Shown here in pieces: positions 2,641 to 30,367 of a stretch of DNA of 41,297 bases. Below the pieces are notes generated by a model, which saw nothing but the letters and a program-made list of their open reading frames with translations, ran no database searches and had not been told where the DNA came from. The position numbers were made by a program, and so were the translations under genes. How positions within the stretch are numbered: position 1 is the stretch's first letter; each line of letters begins with the position of its first letter. Source of the stretch: a virus; IMG/VR virus record IMGVR_UViG_3300036785_000873, positions 1 to 41,297 of that record; one strand, written 5' to 3'.

Positions 2641-3038
2641 AAATTTCTTAGCCGATACGCGCACGAGTTCCAGTCGCGCGGGTCCATCCGTTCGAGGTTC
2701 GGAATGAGAATGCCGGACAACGCCGCCATGATGCGCATCATCTTCTGCTCGTCAATCGCGGGGTCACCATCGAGAGTAATCCGGCACGGATTGCCGTACC
2801 GATTGATGTCGCTGGCATACGGCTCGCGAAAGACAAGCTCGTGAACCTCCTCGTTCTGCATGTTCTTGATCGGCCTGTGCAGGAGCTTGACACGGACTGG
2901 CCACTCAGGCGGCGCTGGTTCGGCCACGGGCTCAGGCGCAGCCGCAGGCGCCCCGCCATTTGGTCCCGGCCGCGGCGGCGACGGCTCTGCCGTAACCTTC
3001 ACCTCTTCCGGGTCTTGAAATCCTTCGCGTACGTTCAT
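2613..3038 (-). CDS. Tail assembly chaperone (Mu gp41 / P2 gpE-like)
   Basis: 141 aa. A Pro/Ala-rich N-terminus is followed by 'VRVKLLHRPIKNMQNEEVHELVFREPYASDINRYG', the pattern of phage tail assembly chaperones of contractile-tailed phages (TAC_7-like), and a helical C-terminus. It should help assemble the tube around the tape measure in the host cytoplasm. The start is ATG 3038 behind AAGGAG. The 3' end overlaps the -1 frame described separately. It lies between the tube and tape measure genes, as in Mu. Confidence 0.8.
   Translation of the reverse strand: MNVREGFQDPEEVKVTAEPSPPRPGPNGGAPAAAPEPVAEPAPPEWPVRVKLLHRPIKNMQNEEVHELVFREPYASDINRYGNPCRITLDGDPAIDEQKMMRIMAALSGILIPNLERMDPRDWNSCAYRLRNFFLPEVAAW
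2640..2646 (-). other. Programmed -1 frameshift site A_AAU_UUU
   Basis: In the frame of the upstream chaperone (codon 131 AGA, 132 AAT, 133 TTT) the minus strand reads A AAT TTT, an exact X_XXY_YYZ slippery heptamer. A -1 slip re-pairs AAA and TTT and continues with TTT CTT GCC in the downstream frame, 24 bases before the zero-frame stop region. Its location between the two chaperone frames just upstream of the tape measure is where tailed phages place this signal. I did not identify a clear stimulatory hairpin. Confidence 0.75.
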
Positions 3039-3667: not shown

Positions 3668-6000
3668 TTAGAGCGCTTGCAGCGGCGGCAGAACGCCGGT
3701 CACGCCGATCGTCGCCGGATTCGGTCCGAGGATCGCCGTATCCAAACCTCTGTCGTACTGGAGTCTGAACTGCGCAAGCACAGCGAAGATTCGCAACTGA
3801 TTTATCAAGTCTGGCCCGTAGAGCACATTGATTCTGTTCGGGTCGTTAGGGTCTCGCTCGACAAGAAGATTCGCCTTGAACGCCTGAAGATTCTCAACGA
3901 GACCGTCCCACATATCCTGGACGTACTCAGCGATGAGTTCGCCCTTGATGATGCCGGGCGTGACGATCGCCTGGCCCGGACCGAACCGCGTCCCGTCGTC
4001 CGCAAGCTTGACGCGCGGATACTTCGACGTGATCGCATAACGCTGGTTTCTGATCAGCCGCGCGAGCGTCGCGAGAGTCGTAACGAGTTCATACGCATCG
4101 TCTCTGAACCCATAGAGATTCAGTTGGTAAGTTGTCGTCTCGCGCGAGATCATCGGCTGGTTGTCCGAGCCAGCCTTTTGCGTCGCGACCCCGTTCGTCG
4201 CCAGCGAATTGATTTCGATCGTGTCAAACCGGTCCTGCAGCGGCGCAAGCTTGACCGTGTTGAGACTCAGAGTCTGAAGAGGTCGGGCTGGATCGTTGGT
4301 CAAAGCTCTCTGAGCTTTGGCCACATATGCCGCGACCCAATCGAACACCGCCGACGGCGATGTCATCTCGACGCCCATCACCGACGTGACGCCGCTGTTG
4401 CGCGTATTCCCAAACGTCAACAGGTTCGGATAAGTATCTCTTCGCGCCGAGAAGAGGTGACCGTACAACTGCCGGCGCCAACCCCAACGCCCAACGTCTT
4501 CGAAGCCATATTCTAGCTCCCAAGCGTTGAGGGTCGTCGAGTCTGTGTACGGCAGCGCGACATACTCGAACTGCTTCTCGCCGAGGTTCGCGATCGCAGT
4601 GTCCATGATCGGAACGCCGACCCCGCCGTGGAGGAAGTTGGCCACACCGGAAGTCTGGAATGTCAATGCGACGCTAGCCAACGTCGTCACCGCACTCGTG
4701 ACATAGACGCCGTTGCCGCCCGGCGTGCCGGAGGTCTGGCTCACGATTGTGGTGTTCGCCGGAACACCGACGCCGGTCACCGCGGCTCCGGTGCTGATCA
4801 TGCCCGTAGCTCCAGCGATCGTGAGACTGGTGGTCCCACTGCTCGTCCCGGTGCCAGTCCCCGACGTCGGTCCTGGCAGCGTTATCCCAAGCCCAATCGG
4901 CGTCACCTCTCCGCCGATCGTGCCGTAGTAGTTCATGTCGACGCGGATGTCGTTGCCGTTAACGCCCTTCCAGGTGCAGGTCAGAATGCAACTGACATTC
5001 TGCGCCGTCGCGGTGACGGGGAGGACCTCCCCGAGACTGTTGATCTGCTCCGCAATCTCGGCGGCAACCTCGTCGGTCGTATCGGACGCGGCGATGTTGA
5101 CCGGGACGTGCGTGCCAGCAATGTAGAGGTGGATCGTTCCCGCCTCCGTCTGCTGCTGCGTGATCGTGATCGTGCCGGTCGCCGCCTGCGCGTTCGGTGG
5201 CTCGGGGATTCCAAGTCCCCACGTCTCGTTAGCGAAGTTGTTCGCGAAAAAAGTTCTATACATTCTCGCGACTTCAGAACCGACACCGAAGTGAGCGTCG
5301 GCCTGAGATTGCGTCCCGATCGCGATCGGAACGTTCGGCAGCGCATCGCCGGGATTGGCGGAAATCGCGGTCGGCACCCACGTCAGATTGAACGTCGCAC
5401 CGGAGCCGAAGCCCGACGTCGAGAACTGCGGCACCGGGTTCGCCGGTGGCGCGACAGCCGCAGAGATGCCGCCAGGACCCGTGACAGACACAGTGGCAAC
5501 CGCGCCAGCCGTGATAGTCAAGACCTGAAGATGAACCCCGTGGTCGAGCGAGATCGTGTCGCCGACAACATAGCCGGTCCCGCCAGCCGCGATGGCCGCC
5601 ACGCTGACATGCAGCGTCGGCGCGATCATCGTGCCGACGATCAGACTCGGTTGGTAGATGACCGGAAGACCGGCCATCGACGGGTCGACTTCACCTGATC
5701 TTCGCAGCGAGTTCGCTACACTCACCACCGCCCTTGCGGGCTGCTGCATGTTCCCATGCAGAGGAGGCCATATCATCATTCCTCTTGCGAGGAAGCCCGG
5801 CGCTTCGGAACCGCTTGGCTCCTACTCCCTTGCGGGATGGTCGTTGCACCTTCTCTCTTTCGAGAGCTTGGCTCAGGATTGGCCGGTCTGGCGTTTCCCT
5901 GAGTTCACCGGGTTTTAATTGGGCTTACTGATTCGCGTCAAAAAACCCAATACAGCGGAATCTTTAGGTCCGCCGGAATATTGGAAAACGAAATCGGCAT
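3668..6000 (-). CDS. Contractile tail sheath protein (Mu gpL-like), interrupted by a group I intron
   Basis: The coding sequence is exon 1, 6000-5945 (56 nt), joined to exon 2, 5693-3668 (2026 nt). The product is 693 aa. ATG 6000 follows GGAGG with a 6-base gap. Exon 1 encodes MPISFSNIPADLKIPLYW plus GT; splicing gives GTT (Val19) and then EVDPSMAGLPVIYQPSLIVG, the standard start of Mu-type sheath proteins. Unspliced RNA stops after MPISFSNIPADLKIPLYWVF. The C-terminal half ('ETTTYQLNLYGFRDDAYELVTTLATLARLIRNQRYAITSKYPRVKL') is typical sheath. Compared with Mu (about 495 aa) it carries two extra beta-rich, Gly/Thr/Val-rich insertions at about 47-125 and 295-370, probably surface domains. The sheath contracts around the tube during infection. 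The ATG at 5779, in frame with exon 2, lies inside the intron and should not be used as the start. Confidence 0.93.
5694..5944 (-). ncRNA. Self-splicing group I intron (IA-like, no ORF) in the sheath gene
   Basis: 251 nt. P1: exon end ATTGGGT (5951-5945) pairs with guide GCCCAAT (5924-5918), leaving the required U.G wobble at the 5' splice site. P3: CCCGG (5912-5908) with CCGGG (5800-5796). P4: CTCAGG (5903-5898) with CCTGAG (5877-5872). P6a: CTCTC-GAAA-GAGAG. R strand GTGCAACGACCA (5849-5838), with AACGACNA as in IA introns. P7.1 TCCC-GCAA-GGGA and P7.2 GGAGCC-AAGC-GGTTCC. P8 TTCCTC-GCAA-GAGGAA (5794-5779). P7 3' strand ATATGGCC. P9 CTGCATG-GGAA-CATGCAG and P9.1 GCCC-GCAA-GGGC. The terminal G is 5694. 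Two extra hairpins (P7.1/P7.2) are typical of phage IA introns. P7 contains one A.C mismatch next to the G-binding pair. No homing endonuclease is encoded, so the intron is non-mobile on its own or mobilised in trans. Confidence 0.95.
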
Positions 6001-9057: not shown

Positions 9058-10268
9058 CAGCGTGTCTCGATCTGGTCGTGGAATTCCTTGAAGAGGTCGC
9101 CAAGCGCAAGCTCGGGCCCAAGCGTCCCGTCGGCCATCACCGGCGTTGCAGCAAACCGTTTGCGATCGATTTTCCAGGACGCAATTTTGGCGACGTCCTC
9201 GCCGCGCTCGCCGCGCGCCCCGCGCTCGCCCCGCTCCCCCTTCTCGCCGGCGATACCGCGCTTGCCGCCGCCAGCAAGCATCTGCCAACCATCACCAGGG
9301 CACGGGCCAGGACTATCGCGCAGTGCGACGAATGACGAAGACTCGCGCATGACGACATCGAGGACTTCGTACATGGCGTCGATTTTGTAGGTGCCGCAGA
9401 TCCGTATGCTGCGGGCGTCGCGGCCAGCGATAGCCAAAGCAATCCAATCTCGGCCCGACCCAGGTGCCTTGCCGGTATCCTTCACTGCCTGCCAGAGGGC
9501 GCCGTCATGGGTGACGACGTCGGCAGCGTAATGGACCTCGTCGGGGCGCCAGGCGCGCGCGATCGGGAGCTTGCCAGGCGGGCCTGCTTCTCCGCGATCG
9601 CCCTTGTCACCCTTGACACTGGCGCCCGGAGGCCCTTGGTCGCCCTGCGGGCCGCTTTGACCATCTCGGCCAACCGGGCCCGGCGGTCCAACAATAGTTT
9701 CGCCCGGAAGACCTTTCTCGCCCCTCTCGCCAGCCGGGCCGGGCGGCCCTTGAACGGATTCGCCCGGTTCCCCCTTGGGACCGACAATCGATTCACCGGC
9801 ATCGCCTTTTTCTCCCTTTGGCCCGACAACGCTTTCGCCTGGTAGGCCGCGCTCGCCGGGTGCCCCGTCATCGCCCTTGATGCTTAGGCCGGGGTTTCCC
9901 TGTTCGCCGCGCTCGCCGCGTTCGCCGGGCGGACCTTGCTCGCCGCGCTCACCGGCATCGCCGCGCTCACCGCGCTCGCCGGGTTCGCCTTTGAGACCTG
10001 GCGGCCCCTGTTCGCCTAGCGGTCCGCGCTCGCCCGCAGCGCCCCGCTCGCCGGGAGGTCCCGTAACGGTCTCTCCGGGCGGCCCAGGAGGCCCCACAAT
10101 CGATTCCCCGGCGGGCCCCGGTGGACCTGCTGGCCCCGCCTCGCCATCGCGTCCCGGAGGGCCCTGCGAGCCCGGCTCGCCGAGCAAGCTACGGCCCTGC
10201 AGTCCAACCGGACCGCGCAGATTGCCGACCCTTTTCCAGCGGATAACCGGTTCCATTCCGGATTCCAT
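9057..10268 (-). CDS. Collagen-like virion protein with chitin/carbohydrate-binding-type modules
   Basis: 403 aa. Residues about 20-235 are almost uninterrupted Gly-X-Y triplets ([19 protein letters not shown] style), expected to form a collagen triple helix. Then come two short modules: '[28 protein letters not shown]' (carbohydrate-binding CBM5/12-like W...Y..D.V..G..W.A pattern) and a related '[30 protein letters not shown]'. A second short collagen stretch follows, then a C-terminal tail. It is probably a trimeric fibre or head decoration. The start is ATG 10268 or 10256; neither has a strong ribosome site. The gene is divergent from the plus-strand island, its 5' end adjoining the first island promoter. 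Confidence 0.75.
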
Positions 10269-10271
10269 TTG

Positions 10272-10340
10272 AAACAATTCGTGATTATAGGGCCTATTGC
10301 CCTAGGGCCCCTCGCCCTCTATATTAGGAGCGTAGGAAGA
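10272..10340 (+). promoter_or_regulatory. Island promoter/operator copy 1
   Basis: -35 TTGCCC (10297-10302), a 17-bp spacer, -10 TATATT (10320-10325). The palindrome TAGGGC-N5-GCCCTA (10288-10304) overlaps the -35. It belongs to a three-copy family with a shared upstream AATTCGT and downstream AGGAGCGTAGGAA. It drives the short leader ORF and the genes at 10452-10828. Confidence 0.85.
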
Positions 10341-10341
10341 A

Positions 10342-10383
10342 ATGAAAAAAGCCGTTCTGGTCGCCAGTCCGCAGTTCCCCTGA
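10342..10383 (+). CDS. Possible 13-aa leader peptide MKKAVLVASPQFP
   Basis: The first ATG after promoter copy 1, preceded by GTAGGAAGAA. It encodes 13 residues before TGA at 10381. A GC-rich imperfect hairpin (CCCGG...CCGGG) follows at about 10410. It could be a leader that couples or regulates translation of the downstream small membrane protein, or chance. There is no repeated-codon attenuator signature. Confidence 0.3.
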   Translation: MKKAVLVASPQFP

Positions 10384-10451
10384 AAAGGATCGGCCCCCGA
10401 ACAAGAGACCCGGTTGCGGCCGGGCGACCCGAGCGGCTTTGGGAAACGACA

Positions 10452-10550
10452 ATGGACCTCTTTTTCGCCTTCAACGCCTTCGTGACCCTCGCGGTCATCG
10501 GCAGCGCTTGGGTGCTCTACCACGACTGGAACCTGGAGTTAGCCAAGTGA
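10452..10550 (+). CDS. 32-aa single-pass membrane peptide
   Basis: MDLFFAFNAFVTLAVIGSAW then VLYHDWNLELAK: one hydrophobic segment (residues 3-23) and a short charged tail. The stop TGA overlaps the GTG of the next gene (GTGA), so the two are translationally coupled; this supports that the peptide is real despite its size. Function unknown. Confidence 0.55.
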   Translation: MDLFFAFNAFVTLAVIGSAWVLYHDWNLELAK

Positions 10551-10828
10551 GGACCGTCGTCCCATCGCCCAAAGCGCTCCTGCGCGCCTGGTTTGCCGAG
10601 CAGCGCGGCGAGAGCCCGCTGCAGTGCCCGAACACCGACACCGCGGCGCGCACACTCGGTTTCAGCCACTTCCGCCCCGGCGTCCTGGTTCGCGAGAAAG
10701 ATGGTCGGCACGTCGCGCGTATCGACGCCATTCTCTGGTCGGTCGCCGCCAGCGTCACCTTCATCGACAGCGGCTGGAAGGCCGAATTCAAGCTCGAAGA
10801 CCTGGAACTCGCCGGTAACAATTCGTGA
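10547..10828 (+). CDS. Small accessory protein of unknown function (93 aa)
   Basis: Starts at GTG 10547, overlapping the preceding stop, and encodes MRTVVPSPKALLRAWFAEQR... to ELAGNNS. The sequence is compact and mixed alpha/beta with no recognised motif. The stop lies in the upstream edge of promoter copy 2, so this transcription unit is two to three small genes long. Confidence 0.6.
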   Translation: MRTVVPSPKALLRAWFAEQRGESPLQCPNTDTAARTLGFSHFRPGVLVREKDGRHVARIDAILWSVAASVTFIDSGWKAEFKLEDLELAGNNS

Positions 10829-10890
10829 TCTAGGGCCCCTTGCCCTAGGGCGTCATGCTCCCTATATTAGGAACGTAAGAGAGAAAGGAC
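10815..10890 (+). promoter_or_regulatory. Island promoter/operator copy 2
   Basis: -35 TTGCCC (10840-10845), 17-bp spacer, -10 TATATT (10863-10868); palindrome TAGGGC-N5-GCCCTA at 10831-10847. Nearly identical to copies 1 and 3 across about 60 bp, including the AATTCGTGA upstream element. Confidence 0.85.
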
Positions 10891-10895
10891 GAAAA

Positions 10896-11180
10896 ATGTA
10901 CACCGACCGAAACTTCAAGACCAAGAAGGCGCTCAAGGACGCGGTTGCCGCTTGGAACACTTATCGCGCTGCGGCCCGCCTCACAGATGGTGACAATCCG
11001 TTGTTTGCTGGCAGCAATCCCAATGGGCCGCCTGCTGTCACTTACTTCCAGCCGGGCCCGTTCGGCGGCAATGAGCCCAAGAACGGCACGTTCTCGATCG
11101 AGGGCCCGCACTACCCCGAGCCACACAAGTGGTATGCGCGCGTCACCGCCAAGGATGGCGTGATTGTCAGCGTGAAGTGA
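10896..11180 (+). CDS. Small accessory protein of unknown function (94 aa)
   Basis: ATG 10896 follows AGAAAGGACGAAAA, directly downstream of promoter copy 2. It encodes MYTDRNFKTKKALKDAVAAW... ending ARVTAKDGVIVSVK, a Pro/Gly-rich soluble protein with a final short beta hairpin. I do not recognise the family. Confidence 0.65.
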   Translation: MYTDRNFKTKKALKDAVAAWNTYRAAARLTDGDNPLFAGSNPNGPPAVTYFQPGPFGGNEPKNGTFSIEGPHYPEPHKWYARVTAKDGVIVSVK

Positions 11181-11258
11181 CCGCAGCCCATGCGTCTGTC
11201 GGCTCGCTACCAGGCTAGGCGCATGACCGGTGATCCCCACCGAAACAGAGGTTTGATT

Positions 11259-11483
11259 ATGTCAATCTTCAAACGAAAACCCAGTTCCGGCCGCGTCTAC
11301 ACTTTCAAAGCCGCCGGATGGGACCGGTTCGACCGGCGCGAAAACACCCCCGCCGACGGCACCAAAGTCCGCAAGTGTCAGCCGCACGGCTGCCCGAAGA
11401 ACGGAACGATGGGCCACTGCTTCATCGAAGACCTCGACGGCAAGTTCATCGGCCTCGTGGCTACCGCCTCACTCACCCGCTGA
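11259..11483 (+). CDS. Small Cys-containing accessory protein (74 aa)
   Basis: ATG 11259 follows AGAGGTTTGATT. MSIFKRKPSSGRVYTFKAAG... contains 'CQPHGCPKNGTMGHCF' with three Cys and two His, possibly a small metal-binding or structural knuckle. A longer in-frame start at 11190 exists but lacks a ribosome site. Function unknown. Confidence 0.6.
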   Translation: MSIFKRKPSSGRVYTFKAAGWDRFDRRENTPADGTKVRKCQPHGCPKNGTMGHCFIEDLDGKFIGLVATASLTR

Positions 11484-11569
11484 CAACACTTTTGGGAACC
11501 CCCGACAGCGATCGATCGAGGCTTGGCGGCGACGCGCGCCGCGGTTCCCTCCCCTGCCGAGTTCCCATT

Positions 11570-11645
11570 GTAATAATTCGTTACTTAGGGCCTCTTGCCC
11601 TAGGGCCTCACGCCCCCTATATTAGGAGCGTAGGAAAGAAAGGGA
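11570..11645 (+). promoter_or_regulatory. Island promoter/operator copy 3
   Basis: -35 TTGCCC (11595-11600), 17-bp spacer, -10 TATATT (11618-11623); palindrome TAGGGC-N5-GCCCTA at 11586-11602. It precedes the gene at 11652 and the run of genes to 13408. Confidence 0.85.
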
Positions 11646-11651
11646 AATCAG

Positions 11652-11855
11652 ATGTCTTGGAAGCCTGAAGTAATCGCCGACTCGTCCGGCAAGTGGTGCG
11701 GCAATCAACTGCGTTTCGCCACCAAGAAAGAGGCCGAGGACAACGTCTTCGCTCTTTCCATGCGCTGGACGATGGTGCGCGATACGCGCGTCGTCGAGAG
11801 CGACGAGCCTGTCAACTACACCTATCACAACGGGCAACTGCGAGCGGTTGCCTAA
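11652..11855 (+). CDS. Small accessory protein (67 aa)
   Basis: ATG 11652, directly after promoter copy 3 (AAAGGGAAATCAG before it). MSWKPEVIADSSGKWCGNQLRFATKKEAEDNVFAL... DEPVNYTYHNGQLRAV has the look of short single-domain proteins common in phage accessory loci (an alpha/beta 'KEAEDNV' helix between strands). No function assigned. Confidence 0.65.
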   Translation: MSWKPEVIADSSGKWCGNQLRFATKKEAEDNVFALSMRWTMVRDTRVVESDEPVNYTYHNGQLRAVA

Positions 11856-11872: not shown

Positions 11873-12508
11873 ATGCGCGGTTTAGCAAAAATGTTCGGTC
11901 GAGAGTTCTACATCCCCAAGAATTCGACCAAGGTCGCCGACAAGAGTTCGGACGCGGTCGCCTACGTGAGCGAGTTTGAGTCCAACAAGTCCGGCGCCAA
12001 GAAGTTCTGGGCGGTCGTGTTCTACGGCAAGCAGACCAAGCCGGTCGCGAATTACACCTATAACACCGCCGAGCGCCGCAACCAGGCCGTCGCCGAGTAC
12101 TTCGAGGGCCGGCAGCGGTCGATGGCGTTCAAGGTCGAGCAGAGGGCCAAGCGGACGTCATGGGTTCCTGACTACAAGGTCGGCGAACTGCTGCGAACCT
12201 GCTGGGGCTACGACCAGACCAACGTCGAGTACTTCGAGGTGGTCGAGGTCAAAGGCAAATACGTCTGGCTGCGCGAGATTGCGCAGAAGCGGGTCGAAAC
12301 CGGCTTCATGTGCGGCAAGACCGTGCCCCTGCCCGGTCAGTACCTGAAGCCTCGGTTCGAGGGCGACGAGCAGGGCGAAACCTTGCGGCGCTTGGCCGGG
12401 CAATCCGGTGTTCGGATCTGCGACGTCCGATCGGCAAGCCGATGCAAGCCCGAGATGGTCGCCGGAGTTCCCGTCTACAACCCCGCTTATTGGTCGAGCT
12501 ACGCGTGA
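11873..12508 (+). CDS. Accessory protein of unknown function (211 aa)
   Basis: ATG 11873 after GAGAGGAGTCACAC. The protein is MRGLAKMFGREFYIPKNSTK... with a 'FWAVVFYGKQTKPVANYTYNTAERRNQAVAEYFEG' segment that resembles the preceding small protein's pattern (strand, then Ala/Glu helix), and a second half with 'YDQTNVEYFEVVEVKGKYVWLREI'. It ends in VPVYNPAYWSSYA. No catalytic motif was recognised. Confidence 0.65.
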   Translation: MRGLAKMFGREFYIPKNSTKVADKSSDAVAYVSEFESNKSGAKKFWAVVFYGKQTKPVANYTYNTAERRNQAVAEYFEGRQRSMAFKVEQRAKRTSWVPDYKVGELLRTCWGYDQTNVEYFEVVEVKGKYVWLREIAQKRVETGFMCGKTVPLPGQYLKPRFEGDEQGETLRRLAGQSGVRICDVRSASRCKPEMVAGVPVYNPAYWSSYA

Positions 12509-12515
12509 GGAGAAA

Positions 12516-12959
12516 ATGATCCTGCTCAACAAAGTCAGCGAAGCTGAAGCTGAGCGGCTGGCCGTTAGTCTGGCCGCTCACCATGAGGCTGGTCACGCCG
12601 TCATTGCCCGTGTTGTCGGCATCAAGGTTCTCAAAGTGACAGCCCGACGAAACTATGTCGTGCCTACGGGTAACCTCGCGGACGAGATCCGTATGTTATT
12701 CGCCGGACCGATCGCGACAGAACGCTTCACCAAAGGCAAATCATGGTGGAGCGGCAGCAACTTTAATGGCGGCAACAGGGACTTCGCGCAGGCCGCCAAG
12801 CTAGCGAAGCCGATCGGCGGAAAAGAAACCGAGGCCGAGCTTCACAAGCAGACCGCCAAACTCGTGCGCAAGCACTGGCGGACGATCGAACGGGTGGCGC
12901 GAGCGCTTGAGCGCGGCACCATCACCGGCAAGGAACTCGATACGCTACTGAAAGGGTGA
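12516..12959 (+). CDS. Stand-alone M41/FtsH-like metallopeptidase domain (147 aa)
   Basis: ATG 12516 after GAGGAG. It contains HHEAGHAVIARVVG (zinc ligands His23 and His27, catalytic Glu24) and about 45 residues later ADEIRMLFAGPIATERF, matching the FtsH pattern of HEaGHA followed by an (L/F)(A/G)G..AE helix. There is no AAA+ ATPase or membrane domain, so it is a minimal peptidase fold. Its role may be to process or bind a host or phage protein. The family call comes from motifs only. Confidence 0.7.
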   Translation: MILLNKVSEAEAERLAVSLAAHHEAGHAVIARVVGIKVLKVTARRNYVVPTGNLADEIRMLFAGPIATERFTKGKSWWSGSNFNGGNRDFAQAAKLAKPIGGKETEAELHKQTAKLVRKHWRTIERVARALERGTITGKELDTLLKG

Positions 12960-12962
12960 CCC

Positions 12963-13181
12963 ATGACATCCAAGCAATACCGACAGTTGCTCAAACTGCT
13001 CGACATATCACAAGTCGGCGCAGGGCGATTGCTCGAAATCGATCCACGTACTTCGCGGCGTTACGCTCTTGGCGAGATGGAAATCATTCCCAAAATGATC
13101 AATATCATCCTGCGACTAATGCTCAAGTACAACCTCACGCCTGAAGATATCGAGGACCTCTTAAAGGAGAAAATCAAATGA
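12963..13181 (+). CDS. HTH DNA-binding protein (Cro/XRE-like, 72 aa)
   Basis: MTSKQYRQLLKLLDISQVGA... with 'SQVGAGRLLEIDPRTSRRYALGEMEI' as a helix-turn-helix: the helix 2/3 arrangement of phage Cro-like repressors, and the 'R..RRYALGE..IP' ending is typical. It is the only evident DNA-binding regulator near the three TAGGGC-N5-GCCCTA operators, so it is the candidate ligand (inference). It starts three bases after the preceding stop. Confidence 0.7.
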   Translation: MTSKQYRQLLKLLDISQVGAGRLLEIDPRTSRRYALGEMEIIPKMINIILRLMLKYNLTPEDIEDLLKEKIK

Positions 13182-13408
13182 CCGCGTACGCCCCTGTTCC
13201 CATGTTGACGATAAAGAAGCTCACCGGCGCCCTTGAGGTGATCGCCACGTTTCTCAAAACTGGTCCCCCCGCCAACGCCGCGACGCTCAACTTGATCGAG
13301 GTGATTGCCACGGGAACCCTCGCAGAGACGAAAGCTGAGATCGCCGCGATCGCAGAGCCAGCGGTCGTCAATCTGATGGACGCGTTACGGCGAAGCACAG
13401 ATCTCTAA
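13178..13408 (+). CDS. Small accessory protein (76 aa)
   Basis: ATG 13178 overlaps the HTH gene stop (ATGA). MTAYAPVPMLTIKKLTGALEVIATFLKTG... is helical and Ala/Thr-rich with two amphipathic helices, no transmembrane span. It is the last gene of the plus-strand island and converges on the minus-strand gene ending at 13405 (4-bp overlap). Unknown function. Confidence 0.55.
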   Translation: MTAYAPVPMLTIKKLTGALEVIATFLKTGPPANAATLNLIEVIATGTLAETKAEIAAIAEPAVVNLMDALRRSTDL

Positions 13409-17100: not shown

Positions 17101-18540
17101 TCAACTCCAGGTGACGTTCTGCGTCCAGGCCACCGTGCCTGCTCTTCGCTGAATCCAATTGAGAGGGAGGACCATACGAAGGGCGATGGAGTCGGTCTGG
17201 AACAGCGAACGCTGCGGAGACGCAACAGTGCCGGGAGATCCGGACACCAGGTCAAGTGGCGCCGTATCCTCCATATGCAAAGTGGCTTGATCACTTAACT
17301 CGAATCGCGGCGCCTCTCCGCCAACTACAACGAAATCGGCCGCGTCGACCAATATCATTGTCTTAGCAGGCACCGTGGCAGAGTCAATGATCGGAACGCT
17401 GGCGAGCGTGCCGGCTTTGATCTCGTCCTTGAACGGGAAGATGCCCGTATTCGGCGCACTCACGAGCCCAGCACCGAGGACGTCGGTCGGGTTCATGAGA
17501 AATGCCGGATTGCGAACGTTCCCGTAAGTTGACGTCGTCAAGGCACCAATCAGCGCTTTGATATCGCCAACGAGCGCCGTCAAGCCGCCGCCCGCCGTGG
17601 CCGTGGTTGCGGCAACGCCGTTGAGCAAGCCTGCCGGACGAATGACCGTCGCCGGATTCGTGTCGATGAGTACGCTGTCGACCGCGACCGACGTATCGGT
17701 CTGGATCGCTTCACGGAGAATTCCTTCGATCGCTGGAATCGAATGATCCCCCATCTCCCTTGTCCACGTGGAAATCACTGCCATTTTCTTTGGCGTGACG
17801 GTCTGCGAGGTGAACGCACCTTGCCTGACAGGAATCGCCTGACCCTCGCCGACGAACGAGCCTGCGAGAGATGGCGTCCTGCTACGCGTAGGGATGATGA
17901 TGCGTCCGGTCTGACCGAACGACAACGTCAAGCCCTTCGCCGCAAGCCGCGTCATGATCGCGTTCGGCATCAGCAACGGCATGAGTGCCGCATACGTCGT
18001 CTGGACGAGTTCCTGCGCCCATCCCGCGACGTTGGTCATCGCGGGAGCAGATGCGGCACGCAGGACAAAGTCAGTCATGACCTTCGTCTGCTCGTCGTCG
18101 CCGTAGATTTTGACGCGCGTCTCGTTCGGGTCCTTACCCCACATCTTCGACACGTACGCGACGGTGCCGCCGCGCACGATGAGATCGAGGAGATCGAGAT
18201 CCTTCTTGCCGATCGTCGACACGCTCGGGCTGCCGTTGGTGTGCGCAGCGCCGCTGAAGTTGCCGCCGCCGCCGTTGGCGGTGATAACCGCGAGCGACTT
18301 CGACCTGCCGCCGTTGGCGCCACTGTTGCCGTCGACGCCCGCAGCCAGACTCTTTTCGGACTCGATCAGCCCAGCCCGCAACTTCTCAAGTCTCGTGATG
18401 TCAGCGTTGAACGTCTGGGTCAACTCCAGATCGGTATCGCTGACGTTCGTGTCGTCCATTTTCTCTAGATGCGCCGTCAGGGCATCGCGCTTAGCGACAA
18501 TCTGCCCCTGGACGTCCGTAATTCTTTGAGCGAGACTCAT
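17101..18540 (-). CDS. Major capsid protein (HK97 fold), produced from an internal start
   Basis: In-frame ATG 18540 (MSLAQRITDVQGQIVAKRDA) is preceded by GGAGGGGGACC, as strong a ribosome site as any in the window, so a free 479-aa capsid protein is expected besides the fusion. Residues 1-70 are a coiled-coil delta/scaffold-like region. The remainder is an HK97 capsid: 'AASAPAMTNVAGWAQEL', 'GSFVGEGQAIPVRQGAFTSQTVTPKKMAVISTWTREM', ending 'SLFQTDSIALRMVLPLNWIQRRAGTVAWTQNV'. Confidence 0.85.
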   Translation of the reverse strand: MSLAQRITDVQGQIVAKRDALTAHLEKMDDTNVSDTDLELTQTFNADITRLEKLRAGLIESEKSLAAGVDGNSGANGGRSKSLAVITANGGGGNFSGAAHTNGSPSVSTIGKKDLDLLDLIVRGGTVAYVSKMWGKDPNETRVKIYGDDEQTKVMTDFVLRAASAPAMTNVAGWAQELVQTTYAALMPLLMPNAIMTRLAAKGLTLSFGQTGRIIIPTRSRTPSLAGSFVGEGQAIPVRQGAFTSQTVTPKKMAVISTWTREMGDHSIPAIEGILREAIQTDTSVAVDSVLIDTNPATVIRPAGLLNGVAATTATAGGGLTALVGDIKALIGALTTSTYGNVRNPAFLMNPTDVLGAGLVSAPNTGIFPFKDEIKAGTLASVPIIDSATVPAKTMILVDAADFVVVGGEAPRFELSDQATLHMEDTAPLDLVSGSPGTVASPQRSLFQTDSIALRMVLPLNWIQRRAGTVAWTQNVTWS

Positions 18541-19521
18541 GGTCCCCCTCCTTCCATTGCCGTTAGTAGTTCTGGCCGTCCGGCCGTTAGACCCGCTGCG
18601 CTTGACGTGATCTCGATTGCCAGGCCTGGCGAAGATCACATCGATCGTTGCGGGGGAAATTTTCAGATTCTTGGCTACTGCCAACGCATTTGCATTTGCT
18701 GGCACCGAACAAAGAGAACACTCGACCAATTCCTGCTTGAGATAGCGGAACGGTCCAAAGTACGGATCAGCGCGATCATCCATCGGCTCCTTTTTCTTCG
18801 CCTGGAAACCAACCGAGACCGCACGCAAGATACCGTGCTCGACAAGCTTGCGGATCTCATCGATCCGTGGTGACGTTCCCGCGGGCGCGAGGTCGAGCTT
18901 CCCTATCAGTTTTCCGTCTTTGTTCGACAGGTTCGACCACCGGCCAATCGGAAAATCTGCGCGGTGGTTGAATAATGCGATCGGATTCTTGTTAAAGTTA
19001 TCAAGGCTCCAGCCATCCGCCGTGATGATTTCTCCCATCCGGTCGACGCTCTCGTCTGACAAGACGAAATTCGTTCCTTCGATGACGGGCTCGGAGTGCG
19101 AGCGGAAAATTGTCACGCCAGGCTTGAGCCGCGCGCCCTGATAGTCGCTCCACTTGCCCAGGCAAATTTCTTGGGCTGCGTCCTCATCGACTTCGCCGTT
19201 GCCGTCGTCGCCGTCGCCGTTACCGTTGCCGGTCAGTTCATCCATACATCTGTCGAGAAAATCATCCTTGCTTTCGTCGTCATCGGGATCTGGCGCGTCC
19301 GCAGCATCGAGCGCGCGACGGCCAGCAGTCCAGCGCGCAATCATTTCTTCGATCGTCTTCGCTGGCGCCTTACCGCCGTGCTCTTCCCGCCAATAGCTAA
19401 AGCAAATCGCGACCGCTTGCTCTTGCGTTCGATCGGACGGAGCATCGGGCCCATACGTCTCATGCATGCAGCGAGCCATGAAATCATCCTGGCTCTCGCC
19501 CTTGTGCGGTTTCATCGGCAT
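17101..19521 (-). CDS. Prohead protease (U35) fused in frame to the major capsid protein
   Basis: 806 aa from ATG 19521 (GGAGG eight bases upstream). Residues 9-48 and 83-125 are two copies of a small 'S+DDF..RCM.E......A..IC...W' module. Residues about 137-285 are a Caudovirales prohead protease with His186 (FNHRADFPIG) and Ser236 (ILRAVSVGF) as the likely catalytic pair. Residues 286-327 are a Gly/Asn/Arg linker. Residues 328-806 are the HK97 capsid protein. No stop separates them. The protease trims the scaffold/delta regions in the procapsid and could cleave itself free. The fused arrangement is uncommon. Confidence 0.85.
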   Translation of the reverse strand: MPMKPHKGESQDDFMARCMHETYGPDAPSDRTQEQAVAICFSYWREEHGGKAPAKTIEEMIARWTAGRRALDAADAPDPDDDESKDDFLDRCMDELTGNGNGDGDDGNGEVDEDAAQEICLGKWSDYQGARLKPGVTIFRSHSEPVIEGTNFVLSDESVDRMGEIITADGWSLDNFNKNPIALFNHRADFPIGRWSNLSNKDGKLIGKLDLAPAGTSPRIDEIRKLVEHGILRAVSVGFQAKKKEPMDDRADPYFGPFRYLKQELVECSLCSVPANANALAVAKNLKISPATIDVIFARPGNRDHVKRSGSNGRTARTTNGNGRRGTMSLAQRITDVQGQIVAKRDALTAHLEKMDDTNVSDTDLELTQTFNADITRLEKLRAGLIESEKSLAAGVDGNSGANGGRSKSLAVITANGGGGNFSGAAHTNGSPSVSTIGKKDLDLLDLIVRGGTVAYVSKMWGKDPNETRVKIYGDDEQTKVMTDFVLRAASAPAMTNVAGWAQELVQTTYAALMPLLMPNAIMTRLAAKGLTLSFGQTGRIIIPTRSRTPSLAGSFVGEGQAIPVRQGAFTSQTVTPKKMAVISTWTREMGDHSIPAIEGILREAIQTDTSVAVDSVLIDTNPATVIRPAGLLNGVAATTATAGGGLTALVGDIKALIGALTTSTYGNVRNPAFLMNPTDVLGAGLVSAPNTGIFPFKDEIKAGTLASVPIIDSATVPAKTMILVDAADFVVVGGEAPRFELSDQATLHMEDTAPLDLVSGSPGTVASPQRSLFQTDSIALRMVLPLNWIQRRAGTVAWTQNVTWS

Positions 19522-19580
19522 GACAGATCCTCCGTCCGCGCTGCTGCGCAGATTTTCACGCCCCGAAAATTCCTGATTAG

Positions 19581-19856
19581 TTATTCTTTGATCGTCAGCG
19601 TGTCGTAGACCGACGGCGTCTCGCCGCGCTGCGGCGACTTGTAAGGCGGCGACTTGGCTGGCTTCTTGAGCGCCAACTCGTTCCCGCTCACTTCGAACAA
19701 CGACCAGTCCTGCAATTCCTTCGGCAACCCAGATTCCATTTCGGCATCCCACTGCGGCGGAGCCGGCCCCCAGGCTGCCTCGATATAATTCGCGCGCGTA
19801 ATCGGCACGCCGTTCTCGCGCATCAGCGCCAACACCGGATCTTCGTCGTCAGCCAC
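19581..19856 (-). CDS. Small conserved-type protein (91 aa)
   Basis: Proposed start GTG 19856, within the stop region of the upstream gene (GTGGCTGA); an ATG at 19895 would add 13 Arg-rich residues. The protein reads ADDEDPVLALMRENGVPITRANYIEAAWG, then 'LPKELQDWSLFEV' and a Lys/Pro-rich tail. I know this type only as a short phage protein near capsid genes; function unknown. Confidence 0.6.
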   Translation of the reverse strand: MADDEDPVLALMRENGVPITRANYIEAAWGPAPPQWDAEMESGLPKELQDWSLFEVSGNELALKKPAKSPPYKSPQRGETPSVYDTLTIKE

Positions 19857-24155: not shown

Positions 24156-25244
24156 TTACTTCCAGGTCGGCGTCAACCAAGCGAAGCCGCGCGGGTCACG
24201 CAGCACCCACGAGACCGGCCACCGCGTCTTGATCGCAATGCTATTGGTTTGAAACATCGACTTCTCGGTGCCCATGGTTCCGGCCGGACCAGGCGCCGTA
24301 TCCATCACCAGCGTCCCCGCATTGGCGGTCTCGACCTCGGCTGTCGGTGCTGCCGCGGCGACCAGCGCGCCAGGCGCGATCGCAGCGACGTCGTTGCCCA
24401 TCGCCGGCGTACCGAAAATGATGGGCAATTCCGGTTTGTTGAGGCGCAAACCAATGCCGATCGCTCGTCCGGGCGAAGCGACAATGATGTATGGCCCACT
24501 CCCGCCGACCGTCGCGATCGCGTTGATCAGCGTCGCGATGTCCTCGAAGACTTGCTCGAATCCGTCGGTCGCTGCCGATGGCGTCAATGCAGCGATGCCG
24601 TTCTTGAGGCCGGCCGAGCGCGTCGCGTCCTCCGCATTGGCATCGAAGAACGCGACGTCCATTGCCGCGCCCATGGCCTTGATCAGCGCGTCCTCGACCG
24701 CAGCTTCCGCATTCGACGACTCGATTAGCTCGCGTGTCAACGCCGCGATCGCTGCGAGCTTATGCGGATTCAGCAGCGCCGCCGTCGAGGCAAGCTGACG
24801 CACCGGGATCGGCGCGCCTTCGGCGACGAACGAAGCGTTGCCCGCGCCGGCGACGAAACCGGGGGCCGCAATCTGGCCCGCGCCATCCCAATCGAGGACC
24901 AGCCCGCGTTGGATGATTTGAATCGCCGCCGAGGCCGGAGCGAGCGCTTCGAGCGCGGCGGTGACTCTTTGCGGCGCCAATTCTTTCGCCCAACCGGGGA
25001 CCGTGGTCATGGCTGGCGCGGATGCAGCGCGCTCGATCAGATCGAGGACCTCGTGGTCACCCGGCCAGATCTCGGTCGCGACCTGCGCCGGCGTCGTCCT
25101 GCGGATCGAAGCAATGGCGGAGGCAACGATGAAACGCCGGAAACTATTCCCAGGAGGCGTCGGTTCGCTGCGCCGGAAAACTGGCGCATCGGTCGGGAAA
25201 GGACGGCCGGCGCTCGTTAGATTTCTGATGTCAGCCATGACCAT
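24156..25244 (-). CDS. Second HK97-fold capsid protein (paralogue)
   Basis: 362 aa from ATG 25244 (GAGGA seven bases upstream); an ATG at 25238 is also possible. It aligns with the capsid at 17101: 'AASAPAMTTVPGWAKEL' vs 'AASAPAMTNVAGWAQEL', 'VAEGAPIPVRQ' vs 'VGEGQAIPVRQ', 'IAALTRELIE' vs 'ISTWTREMGD', and 'SMFQTNSIAIKTRWPVSWVLRDPRGFAWLTPTW' vs the other C-terminus. It lacks a protease and a long delta region. It could be a minor capsid protein, an alternative capsid or a decoration/penton variant. The fold call is firm, the role is not. Confidence 0.8.
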   Translation of the reverse strand: MVMADIRNLTSAGRPFPTDAPVFRRSEPTPPGNSFRRFIVASAIASIRRTTPAQVATEIWPGDHEVLDLIERAASAPAMTTVPGWAKELAPQRVTAALEALAPASAAIQIIQRGLVLDWDGAGQIAAPGFVAGAGNASFVAEGAPIPVRQLASTAALLNPHKLAAIAALTRELIESSNAEAAVEDALIKAMGAAMDVAFFDANAEDATRSAGLKNGIAALTPSAATDGFEQVFEDIATLINAIATVGGSGPYIIVASPGRAIGIGLRLNKPELPIIFGTPAMGNDVAAIAPGALVAAAAPTAEVETANAGTLVMDTAPGPAGTMGTEKSMFQTNSIAIKTRWPVSWVLRDPRGFAWLTPTWK

Positions 25245-25246
25245 GA

Positions 25247-25813
25247 TCAGTTCCTCATGTAGGCAAGCCAGGTCCCGGCAACATGACAGATCGGCCATCC
25301 CTCACCGGCGAGACGATCAAGGACCTCGGTGACTTCAACCCCTTCGTTGCCAAAATCGTGCCAGACGCAGATGCCGCCCGGTCGCAGGAGTTCGCGCGCG
25401 ATGCGGCTATCGTGCTCCGCCCCGATCGCGCTGTGGTCGCCATCGATGAAGACCGCATCGACGGGCTCGAGGTCGTAAGCTTCAAGCGTCGTCGACTCGC
25501 CCAGGAGGAGCCTGAATCTTGGATCACTGGCTGCATATCTCCCAGGTACGACGGGGACCTCGTCCTGCTGACACGCCAGACGCGTCGGCCGTCCCCACGG
25601 AATATCGATGCCGATGTAAAGCTCGATCGACGGCACCGCATTCAGGATCGCGCGCGCCGTCTTGCCCTGATTGACCCCGAACTCAAGGACAACGCGCGGC
25701 TTAACCGACGCGATCAGTTCGACGACAATCGCGCTCTCGTTCGCGCCAAGATAATCGTTGCCGAGCGTCCCGGTATTGCTGGGTCCGCGAAGTACAAAGG
25801 TTTCTTCTTTCAT
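25247..25813 (-). CDS. Class I SAM-dependent methyltransferase
   Basis: 188 aa from ATG 25813, overlapping the upstream stop (ATGA). Motif I 'VVLEFGVNQGKTARAIL' (SAM-binding), 'YIGIDIPWG' (acidic motif II) and 'DAVFIDGDHSAIGAEHDSRIARELLRPGGICVWHDF' place it in the Methyltransf_24-type small-molecule/sugar methyltransferases. With the glycosyltransferase two genes on, it may finish a surface glycan. Substrate unknown. Confidence 0.8.
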   Translation of the reverse strand: MKEETFVLRGPSNTGTLGNDYLGANESAIVVELIASVKPRVVLEFGVNQGKTARAILNAVPSIELYIGIDIPWGRPTRLACQQDEVPVVPGRYAASDPRFRLLLGESTTLEAYDLEPVDAVFIDGDHSAIGAEHDSRIARELLRPGGICVWHDFGNEGVEVTEVLDRLAGEGWPICHVAGTWLAYMRN

Positions 25814-29673: not shown

Positions 29674-30174
29674 TTACAGTGCAACGACCTGTTGGGTCGC
29701 GGGCGTGACGTCGGCGATAGCGAGATCGAGCTTAACCTTGCGGCCGAGGAGGTCCATCAGGACAGCGACGCGATCGTGCGCCGACATGCCTTCGAACAGT
29801 GCGACGTGGCCGCGGAACGAGCCTTTGGCGATCATGAGGCGATCGCCGCGGCTATATTGGTTTGGGGCTTTCGGCAATTTGACGATGCCGTTGACTTCGC
29901 GTGAGCGGATTTTGTTGAGTTCTTCGTCGCGTATTCGGGCTGGTGTGCCGCTAGACATGATGAGATTCTGGATTGCGATGGTTGAGTTAATGACATGCCA
30001 CTGGTCGACGATGCGGATGAAGATATAGCTCGGAAACAGCGGTACGGTTCTTTCTTTGCGCAGGCGCTTGATGCGGATGCGGGGCAGGTAGATATCGAAA
30101 CCGGCGCGATCGAGGAAGTACGCGGCGTAGGTTTCTCGCTGACTTTCCGTTTGGGCGATACCCCAAAATGGCAT
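29674..30174 (-). CDS. NusG/RfaH-like transcription antitermination protein
   Basis: 166 aa from ATG 30174 (MPFWGIAQTESQRETYAAYF). N-terminal NGN domain: 'GFDIYLPRIRIKRLRKERTVPLFPSYIFIRI', then 'STIAIQNLIMSSGTPARIRDEELNKI'. C-terminal KOW: 'SRGDRLMIAKGSFRGHVALFEGMSAHDRVAVLMDLLGRKVKLDLAIADV'. NusG paralogues bind RNA polymerase and suppress pausing and termination. As the last gene before the late region it likely licenses late transcription through terminators such as the one at 3590-3629. An earlier start (30204) would overlap the upstream gene. Confidence 0.88.
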   Translation of the reverse strand: MPFWGIAQTESQRETYAAYFLDRAGFDIYLPRIRIKRLRKERTVPLFPSYIFIRIVDQWHVINSTIAIQNLIMSSGTPARIRDEELNKIRSREVNGIVKLPKAPNQYSRGDRLMIAKGSFRGHVALFEGMSAHDRVAVLMDLLGRKVKLDLAIADVTPATQQVVAL

Positions 30175-30175
30175 G

Positions 30176-30367
30176 CTATTGCCCGAGGAGCCGTTCGAGG
30201 ACATCGATGGCGATGATGATTACCGCAACAAGGCCTAGTAGCACAAGGCTGAATCGCCACCAGGGCTGCCTTGGGGGGGCTGGGGTTCGCATATGGCGAT
30301 CGAAAAGCTCGTCCATCCGTTTTTTGTAATTGTCGAAGATATTATTGAGTTGCTGGCGATGATTCAT
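30176..30367 (-). CDS. Small membrane protein (63 aa)
   Basis: MNHRQQLNNIFDNYKKRMDE..., then a C-terminal transmembrane segment 'FSLVLLGLVAVIIIAIDVL' (about 40-58). The N-terminal helix is cytoplasmic and charged. ATG 30367 overlaps the preceding stop. Function unknown. Confidence 0.65.
   Translation of the reverse strand: MNHRQQLNNIFDNYKKRMDELFDRHMRTPAPPRQPWWRFSLVLLGLVAVIIIAIDVLERLLGQ

Follow-up and report, generated by a model that had tools for sequence, protein, structure and literature searches.

Three near-identical promoter regions precede small plus-strand genes in a viral contig. They raise the question of whether a single regulator might act on them, and with which known circuits they can be compared. 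We addressed it by analysing the window, i.e. the whole stretch of 41,297 nucleotides, and by searching viral and genome sequences for its elements.

Anatomy of the promoter-operator blocks

Three 60-bp near-identical blocks start at positions 10278, 10821 and 11576, and their alignment yields the consensus AATTCGTnAnnTAGGGCCnnTTGCCCTAGGGCnnCnnGCnCnCTATATTAGGAnCGTA. Read directly from the sequence, their anatomy has three elements common to all of them: an AATTCGT heptamer, the palindrome TAGGGC-N5-GCCCTA followed 15 bp on by an imperfect repeat, and the promoter TTGCCC-N17-TATATT. The initial annotation had described the palindrome, the 17-bp spacing, the TATATT and the upstream AATTCGT in three blocks, and we found every one of them where it had been placed. 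The features are as follows.

10276-10282, plus strand: AATTCGT, possible UP element of promoter 1, as read in the sequence
10288-10304, plus strand: operator 1, first copy (TAGGGCCTATTGCCCTA), exact match
10303-10319, plus strand: operator 1, second copy (TAGGGCCCCTCGCCCTC), one mismatch, 15 bp on
10297-10325, plus strand: promoter 1, TTGCCC-N17-TATATT, -35 at 10297, -10 ending at 10325
10831-10847, plus strand: operator 2, first copy (TAGGGCCCCTTGCCCTA), exact match; degenerate second copy at 10846-10862, three mismatches
10840-10868, plus strand: promoter 2, TTGCCC-N17-TATATT, -35 at 10840, -10 ending at 10868
11586-11602, plus strand: operator 3, first copy (TAGGGCCTCTTGCCCTA), exact match; second copy at 11601-11617, two mismatches
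11595-11623, plus strand: promoter 3, TTGCCC-N17-TATATT, -35 at 11595, -10 ending at 11623

The palindrome is thus present as 1.5 to 2 copies with a 15-bp period, TAGGGC-N5-GCCCTAGGGC-N5-GCnC, the second copy being degenerate. As the latter starts 15 bp after the first, both copies share the TA of GCCCTAGGGC. The tandem pair spans the -35 hexamer and the -35/-10 spacer, and the centres of the half-sites lie 11 bp from each other, close to one turn of the helix, which is the spacing expected for a helix-turn-helix (HTH) dimer.

These three promoters are the only sigma70-like sites between positions 9900 and 13900, where shuffled sequences average 0.7. The -10 part, CCCTATATTAGGANCGTA, matches solely at the three blocks when up to three mismatches are allowed (0.02 expected). 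A weight matrix built from the three blocks scores 82-90 bits at the copies and below zero at the next-best position of the window, so that there is no fourth copy. The bare 17-bp palindrome with three mismatches allowed occurs 14 times in the window for 11.6 expected, which is the chance level, and only the exact copies within promoters were therefore counted. Alphaproteobacterial promoters have the form CTTGAC-N17-CTATAT, which fits copies 2 and 3 well. The -35 of the window (TTGCCC) is weaker than the TTGAC of most related sites. A related upstream element, (G)TAACAWTTCGTGAT, is found at the same position in loci L105, L109 and L121, and in the Bradyrhizobium phage ppBeUSDA76-2 (L280).

Genes and layout of the island

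Plus-strand ORFs follow each of the three blocks, and the flanking genes with phage matches (9057-10277 and 13703-15175) are on the minus strand, in line with the earlier description of small genes of unknown function running against the surrounding genes. The ORFs of this island are listed below.

10342-10383, plus strand: 13-codon ORF (MKKAVLVASPQFP) immediately past promoter 1, which might encode a leader peptide
10452-10550, plus strand: unit 1, 32 residues, hydrophobic N-terminal half, no family match
10547-10828, plus strand: unit 1, 93 residues, no informative PHROG or Pfam match
10896-11180, plus strand: unit 2, 94 residues, relatives in 36 viral loci
11259-11483, plus strand: unit 2, 74 residues, no informative PHROG or Pfam match
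11652-11855, plus strand: unit 3, 67 residues, relatives in 37 viral loci, in three cases preceded by a variant operator
11873-12508, plus strand: unit 3, 211 residues, phrog_37844, relatives in 23 viral loci
12516-12959, plus strand: unit 3, 147 residues, HHEAGHAV metalloprotease-like motif, M41/M50 below the cut-off
12963-13181, plus strand: proposed autorepressor, 72-residue five-helix HTH protein, recognition helix PRTSRRY
13178-13408, plus strand: last ORF of the island, 76 residues

PHROG and Pfam gave no informative match for the island proteins, no known acr gene was found in the island among these matches, and the island shows no DNA similarity to named phages. The ORFs at 10896, 11652 and 11873 are real genes, since their products have relatives in other viral loci. 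By eye, a look-alike of the 11873 protein is the first gene behind the operator in locus L148.

No convincing plus-strand terminator was found after any of the units. The sole terminator-like site on the plus strand, at 12678, falls within an ORF, and the terminator count is at the level of shuffled sequences. As the promoters are nested and co-directional, transcription from all three probably reads through a single region, with the HTH gene and one more small ORF at its end. This bears on the earlier comparison of the units with self-contained moron cassettes. Like phage morons, the island consists of accessory genes with their own promoters, opposite to the late strand. Morons have their own promoter and their own terminator between genes; here the promoters are present, no convincing terminator is, and the island contains a dedicated putative repressor. 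We found neither an integrase nor a resolvase in the record, which is linear and may be incomplete, so that expression in a lysogen is unsupported. Judging from its layout, the island is better described as a putative autoregulated accessory operon of the KorC or acr-aca type.

Linkage between the operator and an HTH family

We searched viral contigs for TAGGGC-N4-TGCCCTAGGGC and for a longer form of the tandem, which collected about twenty contigs. In many of them the operator sits in a promoter ahead of a small gene, and several records have multiple copies, up to ten in 24 kb when one-mismatch sites are included. The HTH protein encoded at 12963 is the sole island protein common to the operator-fetched records, being present in 7 of 13 according to blastp and in 9 of 13 using a profile search (hmmsearch).

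The reverse test started from loci fetched by HTH homology alone, with no use of the motif. Among all perfect 6-mer palindromes with spacers of 0 to 12, TAGGGC-N5-GCCCTA is the most frequent in these loci, and nearly all operator sites have a TTGAC-like -35 on one side and a TAT-like -10 on the other. After leaving out duplicates and loci found by the motif, 21 independent loci remained; the operator, with at most one mismatch, is upstream of the HTH gene in nine of them and downstream in none, and permuted half-sites in the same test averaged 0.06 and never exceeded 1. The operator and the HTH family are thus reciprocally linked, as a matter of direct observation.

Small HTH genes are common in phages. 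Among the matches listed, proteins of the HTH family scoring at least 40 bits are encoded in 39 of 73 operator-fetched viral loci vs 7 of 96 control loci (p = 1.5e-11), the latter being viral loci that were fetched with other proteins and that have a smaller mean length (6.0 vs 8.9 kb). In 56 of 66 of the matches listed, the HTH gene lies downstream of the nearest operator and on the same strand, at a median distance of 536 bp. In ppBeUSDA76-2, a named isolate, an exact operator is located upstream of the HTH gene. About half of the operator loci have no HTH protein at 40 bits or more in the stored stretch, partly because these stretches are short, and some HTH relatives (e.g. in L110, L127, L129 and L133) have neither an exact nor a near operator. 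A first genome scan with the HTH alignment confirmed no relative.

The other island families do not follow the operator in the same manner: the 10896 family is linked to it elsewhere in none of 36 loci, and the 11652 family in three of 37, behind a variant. Thus, gene content alone does not define the regulon. The variant, TAGGCC-N5-GGCCTA, is found in TTGAC promoters ahead of 11652 relatives in L293 and L296 (seven sites each) and in L286, which suggests that operator and repressor specificity drifted together.

It had been proposed that one regulator could switch all three units. This is plausible, and the HTH protein at 12963, whose family is linked to the operator, is the best candidate and very probably the repressor that the phage itself encodes for the three promoters.

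Distribution of the operator

Looking for the palindrome in related phages had been suggested at the outset. The bare operator occurs in over 120 other viral contigs, and TTGAC-N3/4-TAGGGC-N5-GCCCTA in at least 120 viral stretches. A slightly stricter pattern collected 28 genome stretches, including those of Bradyrhizobium, Rhizobium, Methylobacterium, Variovorax, Aeromonas, Xanthomonas and others. The recurring operators are usually seen inside TTGAC-N17/18-TAT promoters ahead of small genes. Among the matches listed, the best -10 match is at 17 bp from TTGACn in 66 of 88 cases, or at 18 bp in 38 of 46, a statistic that is partly built in because the TA of the -10 belongs to the search pattern. 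Few of the first genes behind the operator have known domains; these include KlcA-type antirestriction proteins, in plasmid-type loci, and ArdC-type proteins.

In L175, seven operators between 460 and 3092 each precede one small ORF, a candidate early gene, and the contig of L163 and L171 has six operators, each followed by a single small ORF. The sites in L009, and probably those in its near copy L018, are inside coding sequence, and those in L043 form a 15-bp tandem array; we regard neither group as connected with promoters.

A GC-rich hairpin such as GGGCAATCCTGCCC is present in the 5' UTR just past the operator-promoter in L105, L106, L107, L109, L118 and L121. The same kind of hairpin is found at the KorC targets of plasmid pUZ8002 (L278) and is absent from the window. 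GC stems follow 34 of 138 sites vs 7.5 in shuffles, and 25 of the 138 upstream stretches also carry one.

In L006 (about 2960-3020) and L014 (about 2520-2570), the operator adjoins TTTCACGTGAAAC, a parS-like sequence (ParABS). Some operator-bearing elements may therefore be phage-plasmids.

Comparison with KorC and Aca repressors

For KorC, a repressor of broad-host-range plasmids, we take TAGGGCATAATGCCCTA to be the published operator. TAGGGC-N5-GCCCTA was directly identified at the klcA, kleA and kleC promoters of pUZ8002, an RK2-derived plasmid, and several of the operator-bearing genome matches encode a protein whose relatives are annotated as KorC. The three promoters are known KorC targets (PMC12365149). 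In pOXA-48, a KorC site is located between the -35 and the -10 of the korC-carrying operon (PMC12365149).

The alignment of the phage HTH proteins also matches that of KorC (hhalign probability 97.1, E 7.5e-11, 48 columns over the HTH). The window thus resembles the KorC/O_C systems of the IncP-1 plasmids RK2/RP4 and of RA3 and pOXA-48 in several respects: an identical TAGGGC-N5-GCCCTA scheme located between the -35 and the -10, small genes preceded by three copies of the operator, and a small HTH protein with an RTxRRW/Y recognition helix and a homologous HTH profile. In contrast, the phage operators are in tandem copies, and the phage genes are not klc or kle genes. The full-length architecture also differs. 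The N-terminal RxEC..W and C-terminal GxIWK motifs are absent from the window protein, RxEC..W and GxIW being invariant in all rows of the KorC alignment. As these conserved ends are missing, we call the protein KorC-like and not KorC.

The best matches of the HTH alignment to solved structures are Aca10 (7xi5; E 6.8e-5) and Aca1 (E 0.002), a weak similarity in a PDB profile search. AlphaFold2 modelled the 12963 protein as five helices (pLDDT 92.5), and VIA-align superposed the model on Aca10 with a Z-score of 8.4 and an rmsd of 1.4 over 54 residues. The model also aligns with Aca2, HigA2 and MqsA; for helical proteins of this small size, Z-scores of about 8-9 are no more than moderate, and what they establish directly is that the model has an HTH fold.

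Aca proteins repress acr-aca operons via inverted repeats in the core promoter (PMC9410906, PMC9410881). The island has the same organization as the Aca1, Aca2 and Aca10 systems, with a small phage HTH protein encoded together with small genes in an operon whose core promoter contains inverted repeats, and Aca proteins are the nearest solved structures. Nevertheless, sequence similarity is weak, and the window operator is unlike the Aca1, Aca2 and Aca10 sites (PMC9410881).

Other repeated blocks offer analogy only. The cluster K mycobacteriophages reportedly have start-associated sequences, a short block repeated just ahead of several small genes. Their sequence is different, and we know of no HTH protein paired with them.

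A proposed negative-feedback early switch

We consider it likely that the three blocks are sigma70 promoters with tandem operators for an HTH autorepressor, forming a negative-feedback early switch. Upon infection no repressor would be present, and all three host-read promoters would fire at once, so that the small accessory genes on the plus strand would be expressed. The HTH protein, whose gene is the penultimate one of the co-directional region, would then accumulate. Its dimer would bind TAGGGC-N5-GCCCTA over the -35 and the spacer, shutting off all three promoters. By analogy, the logic would be that of KorC on IncP-1 plasmids and of Aca on anti-CRISPR operons. Promoter activity, HTH binding, repression and early timing are what we infer from these comparisons. 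The timing proposed for the phage promoters is also that of RP4 klcA, the gene with the strongest induction, about 224-fold, when the plasmid enters a new cell (PMC7314908). By the company of the KlcA- and ArdC-type first genes at other operators, the island genes may counter host defence.

Other readings were weighed against this switch. The island is opposite in strand to the late genes, its promoters are host sigma70-like and the operator is present in bacterial genome contigs too, all of which would suit moron promoters expressed in the lysogen, with the palindrome read by a host regulator and not by the phage HTH protein. We find this improbable, because the operator goes together with an HTH gene of mobile elements, in phages and plasmids whose bacterial hosts differ widely, and neither an integrase or resolvase in the record nor internal terminators were found. 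We find it just as improbable that the HTH protein activates the island at a set time, whether as a pure activator or as a switch acting both positively and negatively. The tandem sites reach the -35, and the window -35 is poor, as in some activated promoters. However, most relatives have the operator between a good TTGAC -35 and a TAT -10, a position in which a bound dimer should keep RNA polymerase out, and the related KorC and Aca proteins act as repressors.

Recent duplications of one promoter, or of a small mobile repeat, with no common regulator would account for copies that are near-identical over 60 bp and for a full block with no further copy in the viral contigs searched. This is very unlikely, since conservation among the blocks is centred on the operator, the -35, the -10 and the upstream element, with N5 and flanks that vary, and since the operator recurs in unrelated phages with unrelated flanks. 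Least probable of all, the GGGC-N5-GCCC repeats, which could pair in RNA and which in some relatives are accompanied by a separate GC hairpin in the 5' UTR, might be RNA hairpins (leader, attenuator or terminator) rather than DNA operators, but nearly all sites lie between the -35 and the -10, upstream of the expected transcription start, and the repeats have no T-run after them and no Rfam match.

Significance of a KorC-type operator in phages

The recurrence of the operator inside promoters is a direct observation, and the comparisons provide good support for a KorC-type operator with a KorC-like, Aca-like putative autorepressor being widespread in phages. We found no description of the operator string or of a KorC-like phage circuit in the open-access papers searched, which is weak evidence of absence. 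A candidate regulator can now be assigned to the operator of over 120 viral contigs, and two literatures, on plasmid KorC circuits and on phage Aca circuits, are joined. As the operator is immediately ahead of small, putatively early genes of unknown function, it also provides a sequence handle for candidate anti-defence genes.

A broader proposal is speculative, and we hold it with considerable doubt: phages and conjugative plasmids of many Proteobacteria might share one KorC-type operator code for immediate-early accessory genes, with large regulons made up of early cassettes of one gene each (seven in one contig), many of which would be likely to act against host defences, and with repressors that cross-regulate elements within a cell. 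Such cross-talk between plasmids and phages becomes directly testable.

Other features of the window

On the minus strand, in the region 5692-6000, the tail-sheath gene is split after codon ~18 by a group I intron (RF00028, 5744-5975). Exon 1 (MPISFSNIPADLKIPLYW) finishes at 5947, and similarity to the sheath picks up again at 5692; thus, the ORF called from 5779 mixes intron and exon. A NusG-domain protein (PF02357, E 2.2e-15), possibly an antitermination factor, is encoded at 29674-30204 on the minus strand. Two minus-strand ORFs, 17101-19752 and 24156-25298, both match the major-head-protein family phrog_617, and the longer one (17101-19752) also matches a head maturation protease. Similar repeated matches are found in G010 and G011.
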